Positions 6,382 through 60,000 of a DNA stretch of 64,000 nucleotides are shown here, one piece after another. A program made the translations under genes and the position numbers. The notes beneath the pieces were generated by a model, which worked only from the letters and a program-made list of their open reading frames with translations, made no database searches and was not told where the DNA came from. This DNA comes from Nymphaea colorata (Eukaryota; Streptophyta; Magnoliopsida; Nymphaeales; Nymphaeaceae). The stretch is from assembly GCF_008831285.2 (NCBI RefSeq), contig NC_045145.1, forward strand, positions 3,824,723-3,888,722, written 5' to 3'. The number at the start of each line of letters is the position of its first letter. The first letter of the stretch is position 1.

Positions 6382-7824
6382 CTATGCCATAACAGGCATG
6401 TCCTTGAGCCATGGATCCAGCGGCTTGCCAATTGAGTAAACTATGAAACCAATGTTCCTCAGGTGCTCAGTGTCAACAACATTTCGGCCATCAAACACGA
6501 ATGCAGGCTTCTGCATGTTATCATAGATCTTTTGGTAATCTAGGTTCTTGAACTCATCCCACTCAGTTAAGATGCAGATGGCATGTGCATCCTTTGTTGC
6601 TTCATATGCATCCCACACAACACTCACCTGCTTGACGGCAGTGGGGCTTCTTGGCTGCAGATGAATTGGATGGTCCCAGTCAAATTTCTTCATGGAAAGG
6701 TCCCTTTGGATCTGATCCTCAGTCACTTGAGGATCATAGATGCTGACGTTTGCCTTGTCACCAAGAAGGCCATTGCAGACATCAATTGCAGGTGTCTCCC
6801 TGGTGTCTCCTGTGTCTTTCTTGAATGCAAAGCCGAGAACCGCAATTTTTTTACCAGCAACAGTGTTGAACATGGACGAAACTACCCGGTTAACGAACCG
6901 GCTCTTCTGGTAGTCATTGATCTTGATGACCTGCTTCCAATAATTAGCAACCTCAGGCAAGCCGTTGCACTCACAGATGTATACCAGGTTCAGGATGTCC
7001 TTCTGGAAGCATGATCCACCAAATCCAACACTAGCATTCAAGAACTTCGGACCAATTCTTGAATCCTTCCCCACAGCATGGGAAACTTCTGTAATATCTG
7101 CTCCTGTGGCTTCACAAAGTGCAGACATTGCATTCGTAGAGGAGATCCTCTGTGCCAAGAAGGCATTGGCAGCCAGCTTAGTCAACTCAGCTGACCACAG
7201 ATTGGTGGTGATGATCCTATCTTCAGGGACCCAGTGCGCATAAACTTCTTTGAGAGCCTGCACGGCTTTCCTGCCATCAGGTGTCTCCCGCCCACCAATC
7301 AGCACCCTGTCAGGCTGAAAGAGATCTTGAATTGCTGTGCCTTCTGCCAGAAATTCAGGGTTTGAGAGGATCTGAAAGTTTATGCCTTTGCGATTGTGGG
7401 TGAGGATCTTCTCGATTGCTTCTGCAGTCTTAACTGGCACTGTTGATTTCTCAACCACAATCTTGTCAGATGTTGAGACATCAGCTATCATGCGAGCAGC
7501 ACTCTCCCAGTATGTGAGATCAGCTGCCTTGCCAGCTCCAAGACCTCTGGTTTTTGTAGGTGTATTGACAGAGACAAATATTATGTCAGCTTCGGAGATA
7601 TGCTTCTCTATGTCAGTGCTGAAGAAAAGGTTCCTCCCCCTGCAACTCTTGACAACATCGTCAAGGCCTGGCTCATAGATCGGAAGTTGATCAGAATTCC
7701 AGGCAGATATCCGAGCTACAGATATATCAACTACAACCACTTCAATTTTTGGGCACTTCAGGGCAATCACGGCCATGGTTGGGCCACCAACATAGCCAGC
7801 ACCAAGGCAGCAGATCTTCACCAT
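6382..7824 (-). CDS. UGD: UDP-glucose 6-dehydrogenase, complete single-exon coding region (480 aa)
   Basis: This cytosolic enzyme oxidises UDP-glucose twice with NAD+ to UDP-glucuronate, the entry point for the UDP-xylose, arabinose, apiose and galacturonate used in hemicellulose and pectin. The protein opens with the Rossmann motif [10 protein letters not shown] (residues 7-16). It contains [10 protein letters not shown] (155-164), the central-helix lysine in [10 protein letters not shown] (213-222), and the catalytic cysteine in [10 protein letters not shown] (Cys272, with Asp276). The UDP-binding C-terminal domain follows ([18 protein letters not shown]). The length of 480 residues equals that of most plant isoforms, and the start is the only sensible one. 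The coding region has no intron, but the 5' leader does. Function is secure; which paralogue it represents cannot be told. The sequence is very well conserved with no break, so it is likely active. Confidence 0.98.
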
Positions 7825-7833
7825 TTTGTTGAT

Positions 7834-24878: not shown

Positions 24879-25012
24879 AAAAAAGAGGTATAAAAGGTGA
24901 AATATGATCTCACCAAGAAGCCAAGCAGGTAACAAGAAGTCACATTGATAGACACACTTTTTGGATGAAAATGAGGGAAGATGTAAAACAAATGAAATAA
25001 AATAAACACTAA
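24857..25012. repeat. (GA)n-anchored dispersed repeat, copy 2
   Basis: It matches 21165-21330. It ends at CACTAA, exactly where the PIF/Harbinger-like element at 25013 begins. Copy 1 reads CACTAAGCGACA at that place, which suggests what the insertion site looked like. Confidence 0.75.
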
Positions 25013-26235
25013 GAGGTCGTTTGATAATTGTTTCATTAGACAGAACGGATATGACATCTTGTCCACCACACCACTGCCCTATCTTTCTTGTCAATAGTGT
25101 CTTCTATCCACTGTTTGATAGTTTTAAGAACAGAAAACTATGTCCTTTCTGTCTAGCATTTGAATTGTATCAATTTGTTTTAGTGTTTGTTTTTTATTTT
25201 GTTTTTTCTTTTTGTTCCACCCATTGTTTGTGCCTTTAATACCTCAATTTTTTTGAACCAATGCTAGTGAGCATGCATGCACATGTTTGTGTATATATAT
25301 ATATATATATATATATAAAGAGAGAGAGAGAGAAAGAGAGATTAAAAAAATAACACAAATTCTATATTGATAACTTGTTGATCACACGACTAAAAGAATT
25401 AACTTATTACAGTCATTCATCAAACATACAACAAAATTCATGATCCATCAACTAATTAGCTTCAAAACCCCGAACTAGACAATGCAAAAGGAAGGAAAAC
25501 AACTGGTGTTGGTTATAATGTTACCTGAAAAACTAATCATAATTTGCTCCAAATTTAACAAATACAGACGAAATCAAGAGCTTTAGGAGCTTCACATTCC
25601 CAACACCCCTCTCTTGCCACTGATTTCCCTCTTTACTGAACCGATAAAGCTTCGCCTTCCTGAAAAAGACAACCAGATCAGCATAAAACCCTTACGCTTG
25701 AAGAGACCTCAAGCCCAAACAAACGACCAGAAGCCTCCCTTCACTTACATATTGAGAAGAACTTCTTCGTCCTCCTCAAGCTTGACAATCGGCTGCACGA
25801 CTGCTGCGGTGTCCTTGTCGTCTCTCATGGCCTCTAACGTCACCTGCTCCAGCCCATTCCTCTCCGGATCCTCGGTGTCATGGATAACCGGTCAATCGTG
25901 TGAGGCAAAGAGTTGAGGGCAAGAGTGACGGAGTGAGTTCCTCGGGAGAGATGAGAAAGAGGAAGCGGCAAAGATTATTCCTAGCTCAAAACAGCGAGAG
26001 GGGGAGAGAGCGCAGCGGGAGAAGTTGAGGGAGGGAGAGAGGACAGTAAGAAGAGTCGAGTCAAGGGAGATAGAGCCGTGTACTGTCCTCCCCGTTCCTT
26101 GCTCACCCTCGAACACACGGGCGAAATTTATGCCCTTTGTCCCAATGTCCGCCTTGTCTTACGGCCAGCGTTTAATGGTATTTTGAAAAAAAAGGAACTG
26201 GCCGTTTTGTTCCTACTCGTCTATCAAACGACCTC
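25013..26235 (-). mobile_element. PIF/Harbinger-like element with captured gene fragment (1,223 bp)
   Basis: The ends are a perfect 13-bp inverted repeat, GAGGTCGTTTGAT and ATCAAACGACCTC. TAA lies immediately outside on both sides (25010-25012 and 26236-26238), the three-base duplication typical of PIF/Harbinger and Tourist elements. It encodes no transposase. The interior 25580-26110 is much richer in G/C than the flanks and carries the RanBP1 fragment listed next. A TA/GA microsatellite lies at 25292-25340. I infer a Pack-type non-autonomous element. Confidence 0.85.
25581..25903 (-). pseudogene. Captured RanBP1 gene fragment, two exons and an intron
   Basis: RanBP1 proteins bind Ran-GTP and help RanGAP hydrolyse it in nuclear transport. 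On the minus strand exon a (about 25903-25749) encodes an acidic stretch with QPIVKLEEDEEVLLN. A donor TAT|GTAAGT is followed by an 89-bp intron with acceptor TTTTTCAG (25748-25660). Exon b (25659-25581) continues in phase as KAKLYRFSKEGNQWQERGVG then NVKLLK, which matches the start of the Ran-binding domain of plant RanBP1. Homology stops after KLLK, where the parent gene would have its next donor. Several residues usual before the domain are missing, and a stop lies in frame just upstream. About a third of the domain is present, so it cannot make a working protein. It lies wholly inside the transposon. Confidence 0.75.
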
Positions 26236-26238
26236 TAA

Positions 26239-27729
26239 GAATAAAAGGTTAGGTAGAGGTTTCGGCTTTTTATTGGGCCATGAAAAACCTTATTGGGCCA
26301 TGAAAAACCCTACACACCTACGAGTGATCCAACACCCACCTCCCAATTGAAGCATTTGTGCGTCTAATAGCCACTTGATTAATTCTGAAAATCTGATTCT
26401 ATTTCAAAGCATTCAATTTCTTTTGATGACTTATTTTGCAAATGAAAATTTGAACTTAATAGATAACTAATTTGGGAAGACTTCCAGTTCTTTCTTGCCC
26501 AGCTTTTAACCCCGATTTAGAATTTTTAATGGTCATTTTTATGCCTCTATGAAAAAAGCATGTGTATTTAGTAGCTTGCTTTAAACTAAAAAATTTGTGT
26601 CTTTTTTATGGGAAATACTTAAAAACTGTATTAACCTTTAAGAGAAGGAATGAAGCCGCTATTTAGTATCTTAAAAAATAATTATTTTATTTTTTTTCAT
26701 ACAGAAAACCATTAAATGACTGATATAATCCGATTTACCACAACCAATTCAAGCTGATTCTCTACAATTTATTTTGTAATCATTGGCAATGGTAACCTAA
26801 TTATTGCACAATAAGGTCGCATGTTATACATTTAAACCAAAGTATTATGTTTAATGTGTATATGGTTTGACTCATATAATTATATGTCAATGCGTCTGAT
26901 GTTACGTACCCAACATTTAATATGATTACGGATAAAGTAAGAAATAAGGTCCAATATTTAGTTACTGCATCTGATGGACATCCAAATATGATTACATGTA
27001 AAGTTCAAATTCTGTTCTGTATTTTATATATCCAAATCTGAATCAAACTTTGATTCCCTAATAAACAAAATTTTCTTATTTTCTTCATGAATCATTTCCA
27101 AAAAGGACAGCATCGAACCCTTAAATATATAGTAGCGAGTTTAATTGTTTTCCTCAGAATCCTGATCAGTATGACCAAAAAACTATCTAAACATGGATTA
27201 TTTCTTGATCGGCTTGCTTAAAAATAAAAAACTTGTTCCAGGTAGAAAATGTCAAGATAAATTTAAAATGATATATACATGTTCATTAAGTTGTCTTTGA
27301 TTATCGTGGATCTGAGTGATAATCAATTTGATATAACTGTGGATTTCGGCTATCACAGATTTGAAATTCCGCTGCATCTGAGATCCGTGGAGAATCAAAC
27401 ACACCCTTAAAATTGAATTATCCATCCAATTTATTCCATGTTCACATATTCAGAGTTGAACTTGGATTTGAATTTGGATATGAATGAATAAAAGACTTAC
27501 ACCATATCTGGATCTGATTCTTAAATTCATAGTGAGATTCTTATCTGAATCGAACTTTTATTTCACACCAAATCAGAATTCAACTTTTAAACACACAACC
27601 AATTTGAGAACTACATTATGAACAAGCAGATGGGCGTTAAGCCTTGTTTTTGTTTGGCTTAGTTTTTGGTTCTGATGTATCCTTTGATTCTTTTTTCAAT
27701 TCAATAAGTGGCGATCCCAATGTATATAG

Positions 27730-51000: not shown

Positions 51001-54000
51001 TTGGAGACACTTTTCACAATATTCTTGCTGAAATATGTGCTGTTAATTTCAGTATTTTGAAAAAGTAGCTGAGCGGGTGAAGGATACAGGAGTCAGTGTC
51101 CGTAAACGTGCTATCAAAATTATCAGGGACATGTGTGTTTCCAATGAACACTTCAGTGGGAGCACGAGTGCCTGCCTACAAATTATCACCCGTATTAATG
51201 ATGATGAATCAAGTGTACAGGTGCACCTTGAAATATTCTTGAATTCTAATGTTGGTCATGCTTGGGTCCTGGGATAGTTACTATTTTCCACAATCATCCA
51301 TTATGAGATCTTTGCATTCATCAACTTAGTCAGTGCGAAATGGCAAACAAGTTATCATAACCATCTGATGACTGCCAGCTTCCCAATGGTTGTCATCAAA
51401 ATCTTATTGCCTCTTATCACGATCAACATCATCATTAATTTGTTCTTCCTCCTATATCTTGTCCAACATATACGGGCTCCTCATCATCTTCTTGTATTCC
51501 AGCTTGATGTGTTTAATGTCTTCCTTCTACAGCTCATATGCACAAGAGATCCTCATATACAATTCATAAGGTGGTGGTGATTGCTGGGCCTCGAGGGCTT
51601 TATATAACCCAAATGGAAAGAGAAGATTTAGCCACATCACAGACTCATTCTGTCTCTCTCTCTCTCTCTCTCTCCATTTGTTGCTCATAGTGTTGTATTT
51701 CATCATACTCTACACCATACTAGAATATGTACACCCAAAAGGGCCAAAACACCTACTTAGCACCCCTACGCTAGTTATAGCCAACTTTTAGGATGTTACA
51801 CAACATCCTCCTACTACTTACAATATATATCATAGTGCATCACATGGTAGCATATGGAATGTTAGTCAGTTTTTATAAGTCAGTTTTTATGACAAAAAGT
51901 GATATATGTGATGACTGGGCATGTTTTACAGTTGATACTTTTTCAGAAGAAGATAAAATTTCAACAATGTCACTTGAGCTATATAAAGGTTAAACATTAT
52001 TAATGTAGATTTGCATACATTGAAACTAATGTATGTGCTAATTGACTTTTGGCAACAAATTTGTTAATCCTGAGGACGTTTATCTGGAAATGTATTTTAC
52101 TTTTGGAAGCATATGGAGTATCTCTTCTATCAGAGGTACAATTCTGTGTGCATATACACTTGGATAAAAAGTTGGAGATGCCAATGAGGTGGTGAAGCTA
52201 TTTTGTTTCTGCAATTTACTGTATCATGTGGGCAACTGACTGAGAATGGAGAAAATACTTTCTGTTGTTCTGTGGGTTGGGGATGGATCTACGTGCAAAA
52301 GATATCTAGGCTTGTAGAGTTCTAGAGGTTTTTAGTGCGAGTAGTCATGGGCTGGAGAGGTTGGCTTCAGGCTTAAGAAATGTTCAGACTTGGATCAAGC
52401 ACACTTCTTATCAGATGCTCAAGCTGTTGTTTAAACTTTATTTGGCTTGCCTTCAACGATGTGCATGCGGATATGAAGTGTGATCACCTTTTGTTATTAT
52501 ACTCAAAAGAAAAGCCTTCGATCAAGGAATCTAAGCCTTCATGATTAAGTAGGTTTTATTGATGCATTAAGTAAAAAAAAAATGTTGCATGGACACTTAA
52601 AAAATGTGAGCTGTTGGTGTTGAACACTGATTGACATTGACGTGTGTTGACATGCCTGAGACACTAATTTTTGAAGTATGAAGTGTCAAAGGAAAGACGT
52701 GCACCTCTTTTCAACATGTCTTCAAGAATGAAAAGTTTGAGTTGAATAAGTGTTTGACACGTCTTTTTGAGACATGAAGTGTCCAATACCCCATTTCATT
52801 GTAGGACTCACAGTCTTAATCCTTGCTATTATAGTATAAAGTGCATTAATGGGGGACCTTTGGGAACAAATAGAGAGCATCCACATGTAAATAGAAAAAT
52901 ATCTATATTCTATACTAAATGACATGTTTCGAGAAATTGTTTGAAGATCCAATTGAAAGGCAAGCAGTTAGAAGTGAATATGATATATTTTCTGTTGAAA
53001 TTGGATATTTTGGAAAATGGGGAGTGTAAGCAGATAGATATATGATTAATTTAAGAGAGCTAAACTTTGATTAACCTCGAAAGAATCCCTAACTCCTCTT
53101 TATATAGACTAGAGGAGAGGGATAAGTTACAAGAAAGTCATTAAAAAGAAACATTATTACACAAGTGCCCTCTCAAGCTTAATACTGAGTATAAACACGT
53201 CTTAACACTCCCCCTCAAGTTGGAGCGTATATGTCAAATAAGCTCAACTTGGAACAACAACTTTGGAATGGTCCTCTTGCAAGAGCTTTAGTAAAAATAT
53301 CAGCAGTTTGCCCTGTAGTTGAAATATGGGAGGTACTTACAAACCCCTTTTGAATCATGTCTCTGGTATAGTGACAATCTACTTCAACATGCTTGGTTCT
53401 CTCATGGAAAGCAGGATTATTAGCAATAAACAGAGCAGCTTTGTTATCACCTAACAATTGCATAGGAAGAGGCACTTCCACAGTAAGATCCAACATCAGA
53501 GATCTAACCCACATAACTTCAGCAGTAGCCTGAGCCATAGCTCTATACTCAGATTCTGCACTTGATCTGGCAACCACTGTCTGCTTCTTACTCTTCCATG
53601 TGACCAAGTTGGATCCAATAAACACACAAAACGCAGTAGTGGATTTTCTGTCAAGGTGACATCCCGCATAATCAGCATCAACATACACAGATATAGTGAG
53701 AGATGTACCATTTTGAAAGAAGAGTCCCATTCCTGGTGAATTTTTTAGATACCTGAGAATCATCATGGCAGCATCCCAATGGACTTTCTTGGGCTTATCC
53801 ATAAATTGACTCACTCTGCTGACAGCATAGGCAATATCAGGTCGAGTGACAGTGATATATAGGAGCTTCCCAACAATCCCTCTATATTGTCTAGCATCAA
53901 CATCTTCAGTATCATCATCATACAAGCGAGTATTGATGTCCATGGGTGTAGAGGCAGGTCGACATCCTAGCATACCTGTCTCTTGCAAAACATCAGTAAC

Positions 54001-57000
54001 GTATTTCCTTTGGCACATGATAAGACCCTTCTGATTTCTGGCAAACTCAATACCTAGGAAATAGCGTAGCTCACCAAGATCCTTGGTGACAAAGTGTCGT
54101 CCAAGGACGCCCTTGATGTTGGAAATCCCCTGAATATCATCCCCTGTAACAATGATATCATCAACATAGACAAGAACTATCACTGTACCTGTAGAAGTTT
54201 TCTTGACAAAAAGGGAATGATCAGCCGAAGAACGTCTGAAGCCCTCATTCTCAATATTCTCTGATAATTTTTGGAACCAAGCTCGAGGACTTTGTTTCAG
54301 ACCATAAATTGCCTTTCTCAATCTGCACACTTTCTGACACTCCCCCTCAGCAACAAACCCTGGTGGTTGCTGCATATACACTTCTTCATGTAGGTCACCA
54401 TACAGAAAGGCATTTTTGACATCAAGCTGTGATAGAGACCAATTCTTGCTGACGGCAACAGCGAGAAGAACCCGTAAAGAAGCATGTCGTGCCACAGGAG
54501 AGAAGGTATCATAATAATCAACCCCATAAGTCTGAGTATAGCCTTTAGCAACCAGGCGAGCCTTATATCTCTCAATGTGGCCATCTGCTCTGTATTTAAC
54601 AGTAAATACCCATCGACAACCAACAATAGTTGCATCAGATGAAGGAGTAACTAGTGTCCAGGTGCCTCTAGACTGAAGGGCATCCATCTCTTCTTGCATA
54701 GCTGCGGCCCATTTGGGATCAGAAAGAGCGTCCATGGGAGTCTGTGGAAGAGCTACAGCCGATAGTCCCTTGACAAACTGTCGGTAAGTAGGAGTGAGTC
54801 TAGCCATGGATAAATGACCAGAGAGAGGATGCAAAGTGCAACTGCGTTTGCCTTTCCTTTGAGCAATGGGCATATCAAGGTCATTAATATGAGGACCAGG
54901 TGCATGCTCTGGAGAGTCCCCTGTGTCATCATCACATAAAGAATGGTCAGCAGGATTTGTGTGTTCAGGAAGTACCTTGGGCATGCTGGGCGAGGGCACA
55001 GGAGCACAGGGGGCAGGTTGAACAAGTTTAGTGCAACGTTGGTAGATAGCCCCAAAACGCGAAGCAACGGGTTGTGGATAACTCATGAGAGGTAAAGGAA
55101 GGTGGACTTCATCACTAAATTCAGGCACCCTTAATTGAGTTCCATTTGGAGAGAAATAAGAGGTGGACTCAAAAAATGTAACATCAGCACTCACATAATA
55201 TCGACGAGTAGAAGGATCATAACAACGATATCCCTTTTGAGTGCAGGAATAACCAACAAAGATCGTTTTGATAGCCCGAGGGGATAACTTATCTCTCCCA
55301 GGACCAAGCAACTGAACAAAGGCAACACATCCAAAAATACGAGGTGCAACAGAAAACAATTCTCTGTCAGGAAAAAGAACAGAGAAAGGAATAAGATCTC
55401 CCAACACAGATGACGGCATGCGATTAATAAGATAGCATGCTGTAAGAACAACATCTCCCCAATAAGAATGGGGAACATGGCTGTGTATGATAATGGTTCT
55501 GGCGACATCAAGAATATGGCGGTGTTTTCTTTCAGCAACCCCGTTTTGTTGAGAGGTATAGGCACAAGAAGTTTGGTGAATGATACCCTTATCCCTGAAA
55601 AATTGTTCTAAAGAGGAAGCACAGAACTCAAGAGCATTGTCAGAGCGCAAAATTTTGACACAAGTATCAAACTGAGTCAGAATTTCATTGATAAAATTTT
55701 TGATTACATGACCCGCTTCAGATTTGTGTTTCATAAGAAAAACCCAACTAACACGACTGTAATCATCAACAGCAACAAGATAATACCGATGACCCTGAAG
55801 GTCAGGAGTACGACTCGGGCCCCAAACATCAAAATGAAGTAACTCAAACACAGAGTGGCTACTTCTACTGGACCGCGGAGGAAAGGATGACCGATGGTGT
55901 TTGCCTAACTGACAAGACTCACATTGAAAAGACGACTTAGGAGACAGCTGAGGGAGAACATGCAGCAGTTTCTGAAACGGGAGATGTCCAAAACGTAAAT
56001 GCCAAGTATAAGCCGAGGATGAGGACGACCCCGACGAGGTAGATCCAGCAAAGGGAAAGGAATGCACTAGCCTGTAGAGACCTCCCTGTTCATGGCCACT
56101 GCCAATCACCCTGCCCGTCAGTATATCCTGAAACACAAGAGAGGAAGAGTCAAATATAGCACGACAATTTAATTCTCTGGTAATCTGACTGATAGAAAGT
56201 AGGCTATGGGGGAATTCGGGTGCATGAAGAACGTGCTGCAGCGGCAATGATGAAGTAAGTTGGACCTCTCCATGTCCAACAACTGGGGAATGTTTTCCAT
56301 CGGCTAGAATAACCGAACGACCCGGTGGAGTAGGGACGTAAGAGGTGAATTGCGTCTTATCCCCACAGAGATGTGTCGATGCACCAGAATCAATAAGCCA
56401 ATCTGTAGTGTCAGGAGCAGAGCAGACTGTACAGGCAGAATACATACCAGATGAAGAAGCACTCGCAGCGGTAGAAACAGTAGAAGTGGTCGGACCAGGG
56501 GCTTGATGGGCGCTGTCGCCAATCAAGTGCCTCAACTGAGAGAGAATGTCATCTACATGCAGCTCACTGGAGGAGGTAGTGTGCTGAGGCTTAGGCTGCT
56601 CAGGAGAATCAGTAGATACAGTCTGATTTGCAAAAGCTGGACGGCCATGTTTCTGCCAACACTTATCCACAGTATGACCAATGCGGTGACAAAACTGACA
56701 TACAGGGCGCGAAGGGGTATTGCCACGGCCACGGCCCCCTCGTCCTCTGGCAAAAAAGGGTCCACCTCTGCCACGAGTAGCAAGCATAGCAGAAGTGGTA
56801 TCAGGAACAGTCAATGCAGAGATCGGAATTCTGCTGAGCCTACTGTAAGCTTCATCAATAGGAGGAATCGAGGGACTAGTAAGCATTTGGTTCTTTGCGG
56901 ATTCATAAACAGAGTCTAAACCAGAAAGAAAGACCCCTACCATAAGCATATCTCTGTATGCCTTTTGTTGTTCACACTTGCATGCGGGAAAGTAGCTATT

Positions 57001-60000
57001 CAGTCTCTCAAACATGGATTTGAGACTAGAATAATAAGTGTGAAGAGGTCGGCCATCTTGTCGCATCTGATGAATATCATGATGAAGCTGCATAATGCGC
57101 GTTTCATTTCTCGCCTGTGAATACGTGGCAGCAAGGGAATTCCACATATCCTTTGCACTGTCCTTGTGCAAGACTTCATTTGCAATTTCTTGAGAGAGAG
57201 TACCAAAAATCCATACCATAACCAACGAATTATCTTTAAACCAAGTAGTATATTTTCCTACCTTCTGTACGGGCTCGGGCTCCAATATGAGATGTTCCTT
57301 CTCATGAGCGATCAAGGTTCTTTTTACTTGCATGGCCCACATCTTGTAATTACCCCCATCCATTTTGGTGATAATGCTGGAAAATGGGGAACTCTTCATC
57401 TCTCCCGACGATACAAAGGAAGAGGGATGAGCGCCACTGCTAATTTCAGACATCTTTCAACACAAGGATGAAACCGAGCCACGGAATAGGAAGTGCAGGC
57501 AAAAAGAATACAATCACATATCGAAAGACAACATGCTGATCATGAAGCAATATGCAGTGAACGCATGTAGCAATCCAGAAGTCTGATCGGCGGGAAGAGG
57601 CAACAGCAGAGCTGAACGAAGAGAGATACCAGAGACGGCGCTGAGAAGAAAATCAGCGTGCAGAACCTCGGACAGAGCAGCGGCGGAACAGCGACGGAGC
57701 AGCGTAAAGACGCTGAGAGGAAAATCAGCGTTGAGGCGGCGGCGAAGCAGCAACGGGCGCAGGCGTTCAGTCTGCTGGGCGGAGCAACGGCAGAGTGCAC
57801 ACGCGGCGGCGGCGCAGGCGGACGGGCGCAGGCGGCGCAGGGCGACGAGGGGCAGCAGGGCTGGGTCGGGCGGCAATGGACAGGGCGGGGTCGGGCGACA
57901 ATGGACAGGGCGGCAATGGGCAGGGCTGGGTCGGGCGGCGGCAGCTGACGCCGATCAGGCGGCGGCCGGCGCCGCTCAGTCGGCGACAACTCGCTGAGGA
58001 GGAGACGACTGGTGCTCTGATACCATGATGAATTTAAGAGAGCTAAACTTTGATTAACCTCGAAAGAATCCCTAACTCCTCTTTATATAGACTAGAGGAG
58101 AGGGATAAGTTACAAGAAAGTCATTAAAAAGAAACATTATTACACAAGTGCCCTCTCAAGCCTAATACTGAGTATAAACACGTCTTAACAATATACAACA
58201 GATCTTATTGCATGGTTGGCAAATAATGGTAGTAGTACTCGTTGACTGTAAAAACTTGCTTTTTAGTTGTTTGGACAACCATGTCATCTTGATGTTGTGA
58301 GAGAAATTGGAATATATTTTCTTGTATTTACATTGTCCAAAGGAACAAGATGATGCAAGGGTAGAAGACTTAGTATATGTGCATTCCAATCTTATGTTAC
58401 TTCAAAGGCTATCCAAATGTAAATGTGATAACCTAAGTATTAGGATGTACTTGGAGATGGGTTGATGGTTGATGGAGATTGGAGCCCCATGATTGGAAGA
58501 AGTAAGCATGACACTAGATAAGCCTAACTTGGACTTTTGATTTTTGAAGATGATATAAATGAAGATTGAATCAAGCATGCCACCAAAGATCTTTGTTGAT
58601 TTTTTATGGTTCTTTTGTTTTGAATCCATTAATGAAAGGACAAAGAGAATGTAGTTGCATTAGATTTTGAAAGCCATTAGCATTGTGTTACTTGTTTAGG
58701 TGAAAGATATAGCCTGATTTTCTTTTGTATATACATGTTTGAATGTTTATATCAACATGCTTCGTATAATGTGTAAGTCATTAATTATGTTGCACGTACA
58801 TGGATGTGGGTGTTGGACATGGGTATGAGTGTCGAACACTTGAGCCTCAAAAAGTCACGCTTGGACATGGCTATATATATGTGTGTGTGTAGGAGGTGAA
58901 TCTCCGTGATGTTGTGGGGATTCCTTCCCTTCTCACCTGGATGATGAGTTTATCTGGTGAGTAGGAATGCTTCCATAGTTGGAAAACCCGTAAATCAGGT
59001 TTAGATCAGTTTGCAAGGTGCTATATGCTGAGTGCTGGATTGTAGGTGATGTTCCCTGCTCCTAAGAGAAGAAGAGCAAATAGGTGTATGAAACCCTCAT
59101 CGATTGGCTTCCGTTTGATGAACTGTTTGAATGAATCTCTTGAATTGTTTTAAGTGAAGGGTGAGTTGAAGGTGGTACAAGTGGCTGATATGTCGTCTTC
59201 AGTAAACCAAATTTGGGCGTTTGCAACCTGACCTGACGATTCCGAGTGATTCGGGTGACCTAGACCCTATTCTTCTGAAAATCGAGTGTAAATGGGTAAA
59301 GCCTTGAATCGTGACCTAGTTCTTAGTCAATCCGGGTTGACTAGCCAATTCCCTAGTTGGATTGTCAAGTTTGCCAACTATGAATTCTATGACCATTTTG
59401 GCCTTAGCATTCTAGGCTGGAGCAAAAGGCCTTAGATCACAAGCACTCTAGGAAGACCAGTCTGACTTAAATCTAGCCAGGTAGGCAAGCGTACATGTCA
59501 GCTGCTGGTGACGAAGTCCTTGGCCACAGTATGTCCTTTGCCTCACTGGGGTGTTTTGTCAAACAGGTCAAGTGTGGCATGTGGATTATTGATTCTAGAT
59601 CAACCCTAATTGACATTATTATCCTTAGGATATTATTTTAAAGAACTTTTCTATGTCTGTGTTTCTCTAGAGACATTTTAGCTTCTGTTCTTGAAGTGCT
59701 CATAACATCTGAAACAAATTTTTGATAACTGATGTGACAAGAAATTGCTATGCACACTTAAGCCGAGTCTTGTGGCATAAATATCATAGTCCTAAAATTT
59801 GTGCATTGGCTTTGTTCTAGTACCTTTCGTTCCATCATCCTTTTTTCATAATATTTTTTGTGGAATCTTTATATGGATAGGCTAGTTCCTTTGCTTGTAC
59901 GCCGATACTGATATGTATTAATTTGAGATTGTGTTGTCTTATGGTTGTACTAGTGATAAATTAGAATTGTAATGTTTGTGAATTTTAGTGGAGCTTCTAC

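Follow-up and report, generated by a model that had tools for sequence, protein, structure and literature searches.

A Pack-type PIF/Harbinger Element of Nymphaea colorata Carrying a RanBP1 Fragment with Its Intron

Introduction

How DNA transposons gain pieces of host genes is still disputed, the two accounts being fusion after neighbouring insertions and repair synthesis with template switching. The question is raised anew by a locus in Nymphaea colorata, within a stretch of 64,000 nucleotides (C8:3824723-3888722) that we refer to throughout as the window. A preliminary description, made from the sequence alone, had seen here a small PIF/Harbinger-like element with a piece of a RanBP1 gene, still interrupted by an intron, between its ends. 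Is this a true case of gene capture, from where and by what route did the fragment come, and what has become of it since? In Nymphaea colorata, such an event would extend Pack-PIF capture to an early-diverging angiosperm.

Results

Ends, Content, and Superfamily of the Element

The element occupies positions 25013-26235 of the window (1,223 bp) and is flanked on either side by TAA (25010-25012 and 26236-26238), in agreement with the 1.2-kb element bounded by TAA duplications that had been described. Its inverted ends, GAGGTCGTTTGATA at 25013-25026 on the plus strand and the exact reverse complement at 26222-26235 on the minus strand, are perfect, as claimed, but they are 14 bp rather than 13 bp long, with 14 of 14 bases matching. 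The exact 13-mer GAGGTCGTTTGAT is present at only two sites in the window, those of the element; with 3 mismatches allowed there are 19 sites against 16.1 expected, and these looser sites therefore carry no meaning. Across the genome (407,766,735 bases in 783 contigs), a pattern that required TWA next to GAGGTCGTTTGAT gave 266 exact matches (137 + 129), compared with 0 for a control with the pattern reversed. Ends arising by chance were rejected on these figures.

The content of the element consists of the ends, a RanBP1 block and short further stretches. For one of the latter (25985-26200, minus strand) no donor was recognised in a genome search, which returned nine matches, these being the stretch itself, seven other family copies and a single 55-bp match on C13. 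A transposase is absent from the element, as judged by a genome search for DDE_Tnp_4 in which 150 of 307 candidates were scored. The left flank contains a TA repeat, and a 20-bp tandem repeat (26270-26309) lies immediately to the right. Elsewhere in the window the minus strand carries a UDP-glucose dehydrogenase-like open frame of 483 codons (6385-7833) and a copia-type retrotransposon open frame of 1,413 codons (53218-57456).

Transposase sequence is found in other members with such an end. Among the six DDE_Tnp_4 loci that were fetched, selected for their closeness to such ends or for being alike in kind, five (L044, L046, L056, L057, and L058) have a family end with TWA at a distance of 0.95-1.3 kb from the DDE_Tnp_4 match, and the sixth (L045) has no family end within 3 mismatches. 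Pfam confirms DDE_Tnp_4 in L044 and L046, and one member, L057, also has a Myb/SANT-like domain (Myb_DNA-bind_3, E = 2.1e-7). Over its first 150 bp (25013-25162, plus strand), a terminal and subterminal stretch, the window element has 71-76% identity to four of the five transposase-bearing members compared (L044, L056, L057, and L058). With a 3-bp TWA duplication, inverted ends and relatives bearing DDE_Tnp_4, the family with TWA/GAGGTCGTTTGAT ends belongs to PIF/Harbinger, the superfamily initially assigned to it.

The RanBP1 Cargo and Its Probable Donor

The interior had been read as RanBP1-like on the minus strand, and the profile similarity that this reading demands was looked for and is present. 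The two peptide pieces joined together match Pfam PF00638 with an E-value of 2.1e-11, and a longer spliced reading does so with 1.5e-14, over the gathering score, the cargo covering only ∼40 of 122 positions of the domain. The 89-bp intron between the pieces (25660-25748, minus strand) has the junctions AT/GTAAGTG ... TTTCAG/GAA, and the reading frame is continuous across it, just as a GT/AG intron in phase had been predicted. A search for the full host gene, likewise suggested beforehand, led to a full-length-looking RanBP1 gene on C1 (∼2054829-2055391), which aligns with 78% identity over 414 columns and has an intron in the position corresponding to that of the element, its second intron adding 46 matching bases of 54.

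Compared with this gene, the cargo is more than the "two exon pieces" of the preliminary description; both pieces exist, but they belong to a larger block, interrupted by gaps, that takes in 5′ UTR, exon 1, and intron 1 as well as parts of exon 2 and intron 2. Read along the minus strand, a match to the host gene upstream of the ATG (25882-25957), presumably 5′ UTR and ∼20 bp longer in sister copies, is followed by the exon-1 piece (25749-25881), which begins where the host ATG lies and has been put out of frame by the gap of a single base pair. Beyond intron 1 comes the exon-2 piece KAKLYRFSKEGNQWQERGVGNVKLLK (25580-25659), recognised both by Pfam and by the host-gene alignment, and then a stretch matching host intron 2 (25528-25581) that abuts exon 2 after a 95-bp loss. 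Because the block spans from upstream of the ATG to intron 2 and has kept intron 1, which the C1 gene shares, it was captured from DNA and not from mRNA, as had been argued from the intron alone; a retrogene is rejected for the same reason. On this alignment the C1 gene, or its ancestor, is the likely donor, although another RanBP1 gene, since lost, could have filled this role, given that the identity is only 78%. In one copy (L009) the upstream edge of the block maps 23 bases below the start of TATAAAAG in the C1 gene, a position that may be coincidence.

Other RanBP1 sequences were seen in the same genome. Its best match to the domain, on a small contig (L029, C189:17189-17548), covers positions 2-120 continuously with two TAG stops and could be a pseudogene, a retrocopy or foreign sequence. 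Eight of the 15 genome matches to the domain are partial copies on C7 (L034, L035, and L038-L043), four of them sharing ∼99% identity along 1.5 kb outside the exon, and these copies may represent an independent second round in which RanBP1 pieces spread.

Copies of the RanBP1-bearing Element

At least 10 elements in the genome contain RanBP1 sequence, the counts being lower bounds from a search in which 40 of 198 candidates were scored, with 62 matches. The long block is present in the window copy and L009-L014, the exon-2 part in L015, and remnants in L017 and L018. Aligned with the C1 gene, all seven long copies show the same gaps, of 9, 1 (in coding sequence, past the initial ATG), 24, at least 10, and 95 bp, and hence the simplest account is one capture at the DNA level followed by amplification. 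Ends and target-site duplications were checked in 11 copies, the 10 with RanBP1 and L016. Four of these (window, L009, L012, and L017) have both ends and equal TAA duplications, and the other seven show truncation, degeneration or mismatch: in L013 the two ends are present but the duplications are TTA and TAA, L010 has one end with TAA, L011 a degenerate left end and a TTA on the right side, L015 and L016 one end each, and L014 and L018 no end. At positions 485-501 of L013 a second family end, TAAGAGGTCGTTTGGT, adjoins the right end of the copy, with a TAA common to both.

No similarity from flank to flank was found among seven copies, except between the two flanks of a single copy, and the right flank of the window element is single-copy in the genome over 500 bp. 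The copies with the same cargo thus sit at unrelated sites, and the element has been mobile as a unit with its cargo. A longer duplicated host locus lacking the boundaries of the element, which had been named as the observation that would tell against a transposon, was looked for and not found, and on the evidence of the flanks we reject the element as part of a longer host duplication. Because the right flank is single-copy, no empty insertion site could be found by means of it in the same genome. K2P distances among six copies (15 pairs, the six pairs with L014 having been set aside as an unrelated flank was aligned there) range from 0.052 to 0.170, with the window copy closest to L009 (0.077), and both trees group the window copy with L009-L011 (support of 0.96 and 0.99).

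Coding constraint was sought in the seven long copies by divergence, frames, and codon positions, with no sign of it. Mean divergence among the copies is 0.112 for the 5′ UTR, 0.114 for exon 1, 0.094 for intron 1, 0.120 for exon 2, and 0.107 for intron 2, and the corresponding values to the C1 gene are 0.194, 0.209, 0.156, 0.122, and 0.171; the region limits used are misplaced by two bases around the ATG (GGCGCC), which does not affect the comparison. Variable sites by codon position amount to 25 of 70, 17 of 67, and 22 of 70 (p = 0.42), and those in exons to 64 of 207 versus 66 of 258 in non-coding regions (p = 0.21). The host start codon is out of frame in all seven copies, the frame is broken in L010-L013, and the 3′ splice site is gone in L013. 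The cargo has drifted like non-coding DNA and is in decay. In three of the seven (the window copy, L009, and L014) the spliced frame is open over both pieces with GT-AG sites, and a short product could conceivably be made from these.

Kinesin, UGT, and Other Host Gene Pieces in Related Elements

Two relatives, L015 (C6:14665288-14666699) and L016 (C9:9107940-9108882), contain stretches of a kinesin gene (∼365 and ∼295 bp) that include introns and have 87% and 89% identity to C10:10671400-10671762 (Pfam kinesin, E = 9.9e-13). This motor fragment is placed between the RanBP1 piece and one end in L015 and beside one end in L016. The backbone adjoining it in both is also present in the RanBP1-less relatives L070-L073, whereas L009-L014 and L017, which are joined at TGAAA, have neither the kinesin nor that backbone; the loss of the kinesin therefore probably followed the arrival of RanBP1. 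Because L016 is truncated on its RanBP1 side, it is silent on which of the two captures came first. An ORF scan of 10 further end-paired elements, covering 67 of 212 listed ORFs (11 loci) and eight more from L044 and L057, gave a zf-FLZ piece in L048 and L051 and an EXPERA piece in L049 and, weakly (below cut-off), in L047, all on C2; L050 is 95% identical to L048. Since these further members also hold host gene pieces, capture looks habitual in this family. A peptide found in relatives, RWKVMKEKKDGDGGEANYL, has no Pfam match. L047 (C2:10245239-10249460) shares its stretch of C2 with the UGT cluster (10.24-10.54 Mb) and lies within a few kb of a UGT-like match.

The junctions in the relatives are the most informative part of the case. 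In L018 (C7:15839424-15840392) we find 236 bp of a UGT79-like gene, inverted and 92% identical to C2:10308173-10308408, itself in a cluster of UGT79-like matches on C2, and 76 bp of the same piece are kept in L017 (C9:895759-896538). The UGT peptide has no match in Pfam, and in a sequence search of solved structures its best match is 8hzz (E = 3.8e-14). The piece lies inside the RanBP1 block, where it replaces ∼116 donor positions of exon 1. Between the end of the UGT piece and the point where the RanBP1 sequence continues lies AAACCAGCAGCTCATCTT, 18 nt that match the opposite strand of this UGT gene exactly. This patch is exact in L017 and has three extra bases in L018; it occurs in two of five UGT loci checked, and its 14-nt core in none of eight other sources checked. 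The UGT joins are readable with an overlap of ∼4 nt each (AAAC and TCTT), and no end-like remnant is visible at the UGT/RanBP1 junctions inspected in L017 and L018. An inverted piece, a patch from the opposite strand, and a return to the element are what template-switching synthesis would be expected to leave. Comparison of the copies suggests that the UGT piece was added in the L017/L018 line and that the window copy later lost, at 25463/25464, ∼250 bp that are present in L009-L013.

Discussion

Together these data make it very probable that the window element is a non-autonomous Pack-PIF whose ancestor took up genomic RanBP1 with an intron, was amplified by the transposase of the family, and carried a cargo that drifted. 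An ancestral element would have acquired the fragment; transposase from members with the same ends (DDE_Tnp_4, with a Myb/SANT-like domain in one) would then have mobilised it through cut-and-paste transposition into TWA targets, raising its copy number, and presumably acts on the window copy as well; and the cargo would afterward have drifted as non-coding DNA. We infer that capture went by template-switching repair synthesis within the element, an argument drawn from the UGT insert of L017 and L018 and not from the junctions of RanBP1. The wider proposal, that genes are captured in this family repeatedly by in-place repair synthesis with template switching at microhomology, RanBP1, kinesin, and UGT79-like pieces being taken up stepwise and older cargo overwritten, is one for which we see an even chance. 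The relatives show how elements of this sort may assemble parts of several genes one by one.

A different entry for RanBP1 would be the fusion of two neighbouring elements, with their outer ends used together and the host DNA between them taken along, a model proposed for maize Pack-PIF elements (Gisby and Catoni 2022, PMC8903248). Adjacent insertions do occur in this family, as the TAAGAGGTCGTTTGGT end that directly abuts L013 indicates. We nevertheless find fusion possible but rather doubtful, with the UGT piece of L017 and L018 nested inside RanBP1, inverted, in place of ∼116 exon-1 positions and followed by an 18-nt patch of opposite polarity, and with no end-like remnant visible at the junctions inspected. 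Repair synthesis thus fits the UGT step, though not necessarily the entry of RanBP1 itself, better than fusion does. For the UGT junction, ligation of two captured fragments would be the alternative and, the junction being a single event, may be the explanation.

As to what the cargo does, the open spliced frame with canonical splice sites in three copies and the Pfam match above the gathering score are what a functional retrogene or new gene under selection would have. Such a gene is nonetheless extremely unlikely here, with the host start codon out of frame in every long copy, exon and non-coding variation alike, codon positions alike, the frame or a splice site lost in L010-L013, and only ∼40 of 122 domain positions retained. 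That element transcripts yield antisense or small RNA against host RanBP1 is an idea in keeping with the several copies of one RanBP1 block, but the copies differ from the gene by ∼0.12-0.21 per site, depending on region, so that perfect small-RNA pairing would be limited, and we judge such a regulatory role to be very improbable.

In Pack-MULEs, pieces of host genes also lie between inverted ends, as in the window element, but these elements have a Mutator transposase and a longer target duplication as opposed to TWA and DDE_Tnp_4. A limited literature search found no paper on Harbinger transposable elements of Nymphaea colorata. Pack-type PIF elements are already known in maize, rice, and grapevine, and the window element is a convincing instance of them. 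Those of maize and rice are described as non-autonomous PIF elements with TTA/TAA duplications and host gene pieces, maize cluster 18 having taken up pieces of two genes in succession, much like the family studied here (Gisby and Catoni 2022, PMC8903248). In contrast, the elements studied here are of another plant lineage with other ends, have a kept intron, and have drawn on no fewer than three genes within a single lineage (RanBP1, kinesin, and UGT). Pifvine-3 of grapevine comprises PIF elements with grapevine exons and introns common to several copies (Benjak et al. 2008, PMC2528002); uptake of exon plus intron shared by several copies is the same here, whereas the grapevine cargo is in a long 5′ region of elements with transposase regions and ours is in elements of 1.2-1.5 kb without transposase.

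What adds to the known is the nested, inverted UGT capture, since it is not easily produced by the neighbour-fusion model favoured for Pack-PIF elements (PMC8903248), and since the case of plant Pack-MULEs was left open in the animal Pack-TIR study (Nat Commun 2021, PMC8277862). That study puts forward gap-filling/FoSTeST models, in which template switching at microhomology is followed by amplification, and considers it worth exploring whether the route holds for plant Pack-MULEs. The two models of capture can be separated junction by junction in the present family because a single genome still contains its donors along with multiple copies and nested cargo. If our reading is true, the UGT piece nested in RanBP1 with its 18-nt patch would document directly, in a plant PIF element, the gap-filling/FoSTeS-type route, which until now has been advocated chiefly with animal Pack-TIRs in view. 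Both systems have multicopy TIR elements and, on our reading, internal template switching with microhomology, the difference being that the Pack-TIRs are from animals, and L017 and L018 represent one plant PIF case of the signature that the animal model predicts (PMC8277862).
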